From an uncultured Pelagibacteraceae bacterium (GTDB lineage Bacteria > Pseudomonadota > Alphaproteobacteria > Pelagibacterales > Pelagibacteraceae): a stretch of 64,000 nt of DNA. Below the pieces are notes generated by a model. It made no database searches and was not told where the DNA came from. It was given only the letters and a program-made list of their open reading frames with translations. This document shows, piece by piece, positions 30,159 through 48,721 of this stretch. Position 1 is the stretch's first letter. Every line of letters starts with the position of its first letter. Position numbers and translations under genes: made by a program. Where the stretch lies: the NCBI GenBank assembly GCA_902567685.1, contig CACFNH010000001.1, positions 186,001 through 250,000 of the forward strand, given 5' to 3'.

Positions 30159-30587
30159 ATGAGCATTATAGAAGAAAAATGTAAAGCCAAAGGTGTTAGA
30201 TTAACTGAGCAAAGACGTATAATTGCTAAAGTAATGTCGGACTCAAAGCAAACTTATGGTTCAAAAGATCATCCTGACGTTGATGAACTTCACAAAAGAG
30301 TGAGCTCTATAGATAAAAATATTAGCATTGCGACAGTTTATAGAACAGTTAAACTTTTTGAGGAGGCAGGAATAATTGAAAGACATGATTTTAAAGAAGG
30401 AAAGGCTAGGTACGAACCATTAACTGATGAACATCACGATCATTTAATTGATATTAATACTGGAGAAATTATTGAGTTTGTTGATGAAGAAATTGAAAAA
30501 TTACAAAAAAAAGTTTCTGAAAAATTGGGGTACAAACTGGTTGATCATAAATTAGAATTGTATGCCACAAAAATAAAAAAGAATTAA
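30159..30587 (+). CDS. fur: Fur family transcriptional regulator
   Basis: GVRLTEQRRIIAKVM, DVDELHKRVSSIDKNISIATVYRTVKLFEEAGII, DEHHDHLID. Confidence 0.92.
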   Translation: MSIIEEKCKAKGVRLTEQRRIIAKVMSDSKQTYGSKDHPDVDELHKRVSSIDKNISIATVYRTVKLFEEAGIIERHDFKEGKARYEPLTDEHHDHLIDINTGEIIEFVDEEIEKLQKKVSEKLGYKLVDHKLELYATKIKKN

Positions 30588-43390: not shown

Positions 43391-44176
43391 TTAAGAAATA
43401 TTTTTGGGATCAGGCATCCCTGACTTATTATATCCAGCATCTACATAATGAATTTCACCCGTTACGCCTGCAGCAAGATCACTCAATAGATATAAAGCTG
43501 ATTTACCCACGTCATCAATATCAACATTTCTTTTCAAAAATGAATGATCGGCACTCCACTTATACAAAAATTTGGCATCGCCTATTGCAGATGCCGCTAA
43601 AGTTTTGATTGGACCTGCACTAATGGCATTAACTCTTATTCCTTTTGAGCCAAGATCTCTTGCTATATATTTCACGCTTGACTCTAGAGCAGCTTTACAA
43701 ACGCCCATAACGTTATAATTAGGAATTACTTTTGTGGACTCGTAAGACAAAGTTAACATACTAGAACCATTTTTCATTATTTTTGAGGCTTCTTTAGCTA
43801 TTTCAGTAAATGAGAAACAGGAAACCAACATGCTTTTAGTAAAATTTTCTCTTGAAGTATTTATGTACTCTCCACTTAATTCAGCTCTATCTGAAAAAGC
43901 AATAGCATGAACAACAAAATCAAGCTGGCCCCATTGTTTTTTTACATCTTCAAAAGTTTTTACAATGTCTTCTTTATTTTCCACGTTACAATTAATCAAG
44001 AATTTAGAATTTATAGATTCTGCTAAAGGTGTTACTCTTTTTTTTAGTGCATCTCCTAAATAGGTAAAAGCCAATTCAGCTCCATTTTCTGAAAGTTTTT
44101 TGGCTATTCCCCATGCTATGGACCTTTCATTGGCAACTCCCATTATTAATCCTTTTTTATTTTTAACTAAGCTCAT
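43391..44176 (-). CDS. fabI: Enoyl-ACP reductase FabI
   Basis: GLIMGVANERSIAWGIAKKL, SYESTKVIPNYNVMGVCKAALESSVKYIARDLG. Confidence 0.97.
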   Translation of the reverse strand: MSLVKNKKGLIMGVANERSIAWGIAKKLSENGAELAFTYLGDALKKRVTPLAESINSKFLINCNVENKEDIVKTFEDVKKQWGQLDFVVHAIAFSDRAELSGEYINTSRENFTKSMLVSCFSFTEIAKEASKIMKNGSSMLTLSYESTKVIPNYNVMGVCKAALESSVKYIARDLGSKGIRVNAISAGPIKTLAASAIGDAKFLYKWSADHSFLKRNVDIDDVGKSALYLLSDLAAGVTGEIHYVDAGYNKSGMPDPKNIS

Positions 44177-44178
44177 AA

Positions 44179-45390
44179 TTAGACCTTTTCAAAAACTAAA
44201 GTAGCGTTTGTTCCACCAAAACCAAAGCTATTAGACATTACAGAATTTAGAGTTATATTTTTTTCAACTTTAGTTACTATTGGAAATTTTTTTGCCTCTT
44301 CATCCATGTCTTTAACATTAGCAGAAGCCGCAATGAAATTATTTTTCATCATTATCAAACTGTAAATAGCTTCATGAACCGATGCCGCTCCAAGCGGATG
44401 ACCTGAAAGTGATTTTGTTGAGCTTATTTTTGGTATTTTTTCTTTAAAGGCCTCAGAAACAGCTTTTAGCTCAGTAATATCTCCTACAGGAGTTGAGGTT
44501 CCGTGGGTATTAATATAATCAATTTTATTTTTAGAAGTTTTTAAAGCCATATCCATACACCTAACTGCTCCTTCTCCAGAAGGAGCAACCATATCATTTC
44601 CGTCAGATGTAGCTCCATATCCTGTTATTTCAGCATAAATATTAGCTCCTCTAGCTTTTGCATGCTCATATTCTTCTAAAACTAGAACGCCGCCGCCACC
44701 AGCTATAACAAAACCATCTCTAGATTTATCATAAGGTCTTGAAGCTTTTCCTGGAGTATCGTTGTATTTTGAAGATAAAGCGGTCATGGCATCAAACATT
44801 GCAGTCATTGCCAAATGTAATTCATCGCTACCACCAGTAAAAACTATTTTTTGTTTTCCTAACTGGATTAGTTCCATTCCATTTCCAATACAATGCCCGC
44901 TAGTTGCACAAGCTGAACTTATTGTATAATTCACTCCTTTAATCTTAAAGGGAACTGCTAAAGTAGCTGATGCTGTACTAGCCATTGTTCTTGGAACTAC
45001 GAATGGTCCCATTTTTTTTGGATTTTTTTCCCGCGTTTTGTCTGCTGCAAGAATAACATTTTTGATTGATGGTCCGCCTGAACCCATAACTATACCGGTT
45101 AAGTTATTACTTACTTCTTTTTCAGTTAGTCCAGAGTCTTTAACTGCCTCATTCATTGCAATATAATTATATGCGGATCCATCTCCCATAAATCTCATTA
45201 TTTTTCTATCTACATGATCTTCAATTTTTATATTAGGTTTTCCATGAATATTGCTTTTTAAATTATGTTCTTTGTATTCTTCTGAAAAAGATATTCCAGA
45301 CTTACTGTTTAATAATGAATCATAAACTTCTTTTTGATTATTTCCTAAACAAGAAACTATACCTATTCCTGTAATTACAACTCTTTTCAT
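44179..45390 (-). CDS. fabB: Beta-ketoacyl-ACP synthase I
   Basis: [64 protein letters not shown]. Confidence 0.96.
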
Positions 45391-45893
45391 TGTTTAAATA
45401 ACCCCACTTTTAAATTTTCTGCAGAATATATTTCTTTTCCATCTGCTTTAAGTATACCATTAGCCAAACCTACCGTAGCTCCTTCTTTTATAAGAATTCT
45501 TTTCATGTTTATTTCATAAGTTGCCATTTTAATATTCTTTAGTACTTCTCCAGTAAATTTTACAGTATTAACACCTAAAGCTCTGCCTTTTCCAGGATTT
45601 CCTAACCAACCTAAGTAAAATCCTACTAGTTGCCACATTGCATCCAATCCTAAACATCCAGGCATAACCGAATCATCCTTAAAATGACATTCAAAAAACC
45701 ACAAACTATCTTTTATGTCCAGTTCAGCTTTAATTAATCCTTTTTTAAAAATTCCAGTATTTTCACTAATTTCCGATATTCTATCAAACATGAGCATGGG
45801 AGGAAGAGGAAGTTTGGCATTTCCAGGCCCAAAAAGTTTGCCATTTGCGCAATCAATTAATTCTTTATAGCTATAGGATGATTTTTTATTCAT
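45387..45893 (-). CDS. fabA: 3-hydroxydecanoyl-ACP dehydratase FabA
   Basis: [41 protein letters not shown]. Confidence 0.97.
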
Positions 45894-45929
45894 AAATTAA
45901 TAATGATTATTAATTTCATATAATCATTA
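45894..45929. promoter_or_regulatory. Candidate Fur/PerR-family operators in the fabA-katG divergent region
   Basis: 23-bp perfect palindrome AAATTAATAAT-G-ATTATTAATTT (45894-45916) containing a 7-1-7-like TAATAATGATTATTA. A second inverted half-pair TAATCATTA (45921-45929) has its centre 20 bp away. Confidence 0.5.
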
Positions 45930-46019
45930 GTTTAAAATTGTAGTAATTCTATGACAACGTATCTCAGTCTAAACTACTTTACAAATACTTTAGAATTATC
46001 GTAAATTAAGGCTTATTAA

Positions 46020-48248
<2,229 letters not shown>

Positions 48249-48250
48249 AC

Positions 48251-48721
48251 CTAAAGTTTTCCCCACAAACTTTCTTTTTTTACCCATCCAACATATTTAT
48301 CAACTTTAATTTTACACCATTCTTTCTCACATTTTGAAACTAAGCACAACCTTCCTTTGTCTAAAATTGCTAATGGTTTAGAATAAATAGTAGGATTTTT
48401 AAAAACTATTAGACCTTCGTCTACTGAAATAGCTGCTTTTTTTTTAGATAACTGAGATATATGAATCCAGCCACTATTATTTTCGTGATCTCTAATTTTT
48501 CTAAAGTTATCTGATTTATCTTGAATTAATACAGGTAAATACTTTTTTTTATAAAAAATTTTTATTGGATGTTTAAATGATGGGCCCTGCCTTAAATTAA
48601 CTTTTTCATTTCTTAATGTTAAAAAGTATTCTCCCTCTGAATATAAGAAGGTATTAGGCATAAATAAAAAAAACAAAATTAAAAATATTTTTATTATTTC
48701 TTTGTGCATTCTTTTATACAA
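48251..48721 (-). CDS. Exported SH3-domain protein
   Basis: Signal peptide; VNLRQGPSFKHPIK and GWIHISQLSKKK SH3-like motifs. Start may be the internal MHKEIIK. Confidence 0.85.
   Translation of the reverse strand: MYKRMHKEIIKIFLILFFLFMPNTFLYSEGEYFLTLRNEKVNLRQGPSFKHPIKIFYKKKYLPVLIQDKSDNFRKIRDHENNSGWIHISQLSKKKAAISVDEGLIVFKNPTIYSKPLAILDKGRLCLVSKCEKEWCKIKVDKYVGWVKKESLWGKL

Follow-up and report, generated by a model that had tools for sequence, protein, structure and literature searches.

Our results point to a Fur operator between the divergent genes fabA and katG in a SAR11 lineage that lacks Irr, a prediction that we hold with moderate confidence. The candidate site lies at 45898-45912 of the window, that is, the 64,000-nucleotide stretch of DNA that was analyzed, within a spacer of 141 bp that is 76% AT. 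The genome from which the window comes (G000) belongs to SAR11 (Pelagibacteraceae) and comprises 989,743 bases on 20 contigs at 82% completeness; 985 kb of it were read. On the minus strand, fabA (45387-45893; profile matches TIGR01749, 249 bits, and NF003509, 258 bits) is overlapped at its end by fabB (44179-45390; NF005935, 674 bits), and a fabI-like enoyl-ACP reductase gene (43391-44176; best model NF005078, 410 bits, under that model's cut-off) probably belongs to the same operon. On the plus strand, katG encodes a catalase-peroxidase (46035-48248; NF011635, 1256 bits), and the named relatives recovered with it in searches are nearly all Pelagibacteraceae. The presumed binder is encoded by fur at 30159-30587 on the plus strand (PF01475, 131 bits), which confirms an earlier suggestion, made from the sequence alone, that a fur gene lies about 15 kb away. 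Its best solved relatives are 5fd5, deposited as a ferric uptake regulation protein (E 1.7e-47), and 4ray, a Fur-family regulator. Two Fur-family genes were found in this 82% complete genome, the Fur gene and a Zur-like gene that adjoins a metal ABC transporter, and no irr was found.

The site is the core of a perfect 23-bp palindrome, AAATTAATAATGATTATTAATTT (45894-45916), an 11-1-11 inverted repeat that on inspection abuts the fabA start codon. Both the palindrome and the likeness of its core to a Fur box had been claimed in the sequence-only reading, and both descriptions hold. The core, TAATAATGATTATTA, has two mismatches to the 7-1-7 Fur box TGATAATNATTATCA (inverted heptamers TGATAAT-N-ATTATCA), with which it agrees at 12 of 14 informative positions and not exactly. 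As a bare palindrome, AAATTAATAATGATTATTAATTT is unremarkable for such AT-rich DNA and goes beyond chance only weakly: the 985 kb of G000 contain six perfect palindromes with arms of at least 11, three of them intergenic, including this one, and a perfect 11-1-11 palindrome is expected 0.17 times in the 28.7 kb of noncoding DNA upstream of genes that were tested. Considered as a Fur box, the site is beyond chance; noncoding sites with two or fewer mismatches to the box number six in G000 versus 1.45 expected. The genome holds a single copy of the exact 15-mer. A genome scan with the motif of the sequence-only reading, TAATAATNATTATTA, showed no enrichment of sites with up to one mismatch, which number six against six for the reversed control. 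The same reading had proposed a second, tandem element. The inverted repeat in question, TAATCATTA (45921-45929), is present and is centered 20 bp away, but it is a small 4-1-4 repeat that is not preserved in the corresponding spacer of a second genome, and no second Fur-like site at regular spacing was found.

Fur boxes elsewhere in the genus give this match its context. Exact copies of TGATAATNATTATCA occur in 108 of 169 genomes, whereas the reversed pattern occurs in 2 of 169. Among 30 exact boxes whose loci were inspected, most lie 8 to 60 bp upstream of a gene for a periplasmic Fe3+-binding protein, three lie upstream of an FTR1-like permease gene, and three lie about 212 bp upstream of sdhA (L282, L292, and L294), sdhA being a candidate Fur target beyond iron transport. 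In five loci (L281, L283, L296, L299, and L305, around 1501-1542), the Fe3+-binding-protein gene is preceded by paired exact boxes that are exactly 27 bp apart. Judged from sequence, the genus uses the 7-1-7 box as its working Fur box. Our scan agrees with a previous SAR11 survey in which every Fur box was located ahead of an Fe3+ transporter or an FTR1 permease (PMC4771312). In addition, sfuC, the P. ubique counterpart of the Fe3+-binding-protein gene, is upregulated 16-fold under iron limitation (PMC2864753); the classical box was not found in strain HTCC1062 (PMC3090418). G000 has a single exact box, which precedes the Fe3+-binding-protein gene, and sites with two or fewer mismatches that are common to G000 and the second genome lie at that gene, at iscR, and between fabA and katG. 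The site described here resembles the operators of the survey in its 15-bp inverted-repeat plan, its genus, its presumed regulator, and its nearness to a start codon. It differs in being two mismatches off the consensus and in being flanked by fabA and katG, whereas the survey targets were restricted to transport, to which it would be an exception.

Comparison with this second genome (G140), from the same genus, strengthens the case. G140 aligns with the window through the whole spacer, at 78% over 651 bases, and also has no irr there. In both genomes the box sits 4 bp from the fabA ATG, at position 5 of the spacer. The G140 copy, CGGTAATGATTATCA, has the same score, with two mismatches that fall at other positions than in G000. 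The two copies differ at four bases, and at each motif position the consensus base is present in at least one of them. In simulated drift, the probability of retaining two or fewer mismatches across four substitutions was 0.006-0.010. Identity between the boxes (11/15) is not above the spacer average of 70%, so the argument for Fur rests on the retained score and not on raw conservation. When half-sites were permuted (150 motifs, 764 orthologue pairs), 109 of the 150 motifs had no conserved site, 41 had at least one, and 3 exceeded the real motif's three. One of these three conserved sites counts for both fabA and katG, so that they represent two independent loci; the iscR site, which lay under a mis-called gene start, was left out of the count. 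Overall, G140 gives the Fur box genuine, if moderate, support.

The arrangement of these genes in relatives indicates how the site may have come about. The usual order is fabA-irr-katG, with irr between the other two genes in 38 of 40 Pelagibacteraceae loci that were fetched; the two exceptions are L011 and L001, the latter being the copy from the window itself. The sequence-only reading had held that katG took the place of irr beside fabA, and this turns out to be the reverse of what happened. Since irr is missing from its usual position in the window, in G140, and at two more loci, katG did not displace irr; rather, irr was lost from between its neighbors. Searches of G000 and G140 with Irr proteins and models returned only a Fur-like match, at about 48-52 bits versus 128-151 bits for true Irr, and both genomes are assembled right across the locus where irr usually resides. 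Loss of irr alone does not bring a Fur box, however, since L011 and G005, where irr is also absent, have a different junction with one Irr-like box remaining and no Fur box. No Fur box was found at fabA in the irr-bearing loci examined in full. An irr-less spacer of the type described here is carried by two genomes only, a caveat to its reading as a Fur operator.

Related loci also carry a second kind of palindromic box, TTTAGAATNATTATAAA. Of 39 irr-bearing loci, 33 have it over the katG promoter with zero or one mismatch; ahead of irr it is kept less strictly (18/39 at the same stringency). Exact copies across the genus are found almost solely beside irr. From its half-sites and its place, we infer that this is the Irr box. 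The layout, with one copy before irr and another over the katG promoter, recalls the Irr boxes, or iron control elements, of alphaproteobacteria, and the window retains a decayed copy over its katG promoter, TTTAGAATTATCGTAAA (45989-46005, plus strand), with two mismatches to TTTAGAATNATTATAAA. The G140 copy also has two mismatches, and similarly mild decay is seen in 5 of the 39 irr-bearing loci. The palindrome beside fabA differs from such boxes in its half-site, in its position, and in the missing irr. In Rhodobacter sphaeroides, loss of irr raises katE catalase expression and peroxide resistance (PMC3413700). A link between Irr and catalase is therefore known, but the katE effect is considered indirect, no Irr box being involved, whereas relatives of the window carry an Irr-type box on katG itself. 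A literature search on irr together with fabA yielded only unrelated work among the matches listed.

On the katG tree, the irr-less state requires four changes, and neither the katG tree nor the fabB tree joins G000 with G140, for which reason we rejected a single irr loss shared by the two genomes through simple descent. Yet the two share a 43-bp motif on the katG side of the spacer that was found in no others among 397 genomes of the family. Recombination may thus have spread the irr-less spacer, or the two genomes may have lost irr independently. Additional copies of the spacer as a whole were sought in those 397 genomes and in viral contigs, and none were found. More broadly, the region from fabA to an SH3-domain gene (45893-48251 in the window; also L266, L268, and L269) is variable in SAR11, holding irr and katG, katG on its own, or a gene resembling Asp/Asn beta-hydroxylase (PF05118, 34 bits). 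For example, irr and katG are both absent from G003, G024, and G085, where the hydroxylase-like gene follows fabA. Close katG relatives (80% and 72% identity) were also observed on contigs labelled Gammaproteobacteria and Flammeovirgaceae (L015 and L046), reflecting either horizontal transfer or mislabelled bins.

Taken together, these observations are best explained by the following scenario. In this SAR11 lineage, irr was lost from the fabA-irr-katG arrangement, shortening the spacer, and a predicted Fur operator of the classical 7-1-7 type occupies the shortened spacer immediately before fabA. A putative fabA promoter, TTGTCA-17-TAAACT (45929-45957, minus strand), is a weak match by consensus only, with its TTGTCA identical in G140. 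A putative katG promoter, TTTACA-18-TAAATT (45978-46007, plus strand), is likewise weak and came from a consensus scan; it falls where conservation along the spacer is highest. The box lies between the presumed fabA promoter and the ATG; relative to the putative katG promoter, it is some 70 bp upstream. An operator between a promoter and the start codon is in a typical blocking position, and we accordingly propose that Fur with iron could act as a repressor of fabA-fabB-fabI. Under iron-replete conditions, iron-loaded Fur would bind the palindrome and block transcription of these genes. Fur bound there may also affect katG, over whose promoter the old Irr site survives in partly decayed form.

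There are other ways to read the locus. It is possible, although we doubt it, that an AT-rich palindrome in an AT-rich spacer resembles a Fur box by chance. Five other perfect palindromes with arms of similar length are present in G000, the degenerate motif occurs no more often than its reversed control, and the identity of the box to G140 is that of the spacer at large; even the expected number of perfect palindromes in upstream DNA, given above, can be set on this side. Against coincidence are the equal position and score in G140 despite four substitutions, and the excess of near-matching boxes in noncoding DNA. Slightly less probable, in our estimation, is that function resides in the conserved block on the katG side (about 45950-46005) instead of in the palindrome, the block being either an operator or one half of the Irr site that was retained. 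This block is the best conserved part of the spacer, with 39 of 46 bases identical between G000 and G140, and within the family it is confined to these 2 of 397 genomes. Nevertheless, it leaves the kept Fur-box score beside fabA unexplained, and the palindrome and the block may both be functional.

The identity of the binder raises a separate issue. The sequence-only reading had described the site as Fur/PerR-like, with Fur and any Irr of the genome as proteins to test; the Fur-type assignment is upheld by the genus-wide box and the position kept in G140, and iron control as an idea finds support, but Irr and PerR as binders do not. That Irr or some other member of the Fur family (PerR or Zur, for example) binds in place of Fur seems to us improbable. 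Irr-type and Fur boxes are admittedly alike (TTAGAATNATTATAA versus TGATAATNATTATCA), many irr-bearing loci have Irr boxes just three mismatches from the Fur box, and an unseen gene could exist in a genome that is 82% complete. Still, irr is missing from two genomes that span its usual locus, and the G140 box fits Fur and not Irr. The palindrome has three mismatches to the Irr box in G000 and is outside the best three matches in G140, whose top Irr match is elsewhere, over the katG promoter. The sole other Fur-family gene found is the Zur-like one beside the transporter, and PerR models score far under cut-off on both it and the Fur gene of this 82% complete genome. With neither a PerR nor an Irr gene found in G000 at that completeness, both are disfavored as binders. 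More improbable again is that the palindrome works at the RNA level, as a hairpin in the leader of fabA that masks the translation start. The palindrome is directly before the ATG and folds as a 10-bp hairpin, but this hairpin is all A-U, with a folding energy of -4.4 kcal/mol (z = -0.16) that 81 of 200 shuffled sequences match, and the G140 leader folds differently. Being neither stable nor kept in G140, the hairpin was rejected.

Two other palindromes emerged from the comparison of these genomes. One is conserved as CTTTGAAAGTTACTTTCAAAG in G000 (C6:41629-41649), where it overlaps the called start of a lipoprotein gene, and as CTTTGAAATAATATTTCAAAG in G140 (C2:15950-15970). The other is a pair of similar intergenic sequences, AATAACTTTTAATTAAAAGTTATT in G000 (C1:62148-62171) and ATAACTTTTACTAAAAGTTAT in G140 (C1:391459-391479). 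Each is a possible operator.

SAR11 bacteria, which rank among the ocean's most abundant cells, possess very few regulators. We suggest, tentatively, that after the loss of irr a new operator put fabA-fabB-fabI and katG, genes that formerly sat beside Irr and its box, under the direct control of Fur. If so, membrane-lipid synthesis and peroxide defense would answer to free iron and not to heme status. If Fur took over a locus that is kept beside Irr elsewhere in SAR11, the spacer between fabA and katG would represent a compact natural case of the replacement of one iron regulator by another, and it would link unsaturated-lipid synthesis and catalase to the supply of iron in iron-poor seawater. 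SAR11 would then also have a Fur target outside iron transport.
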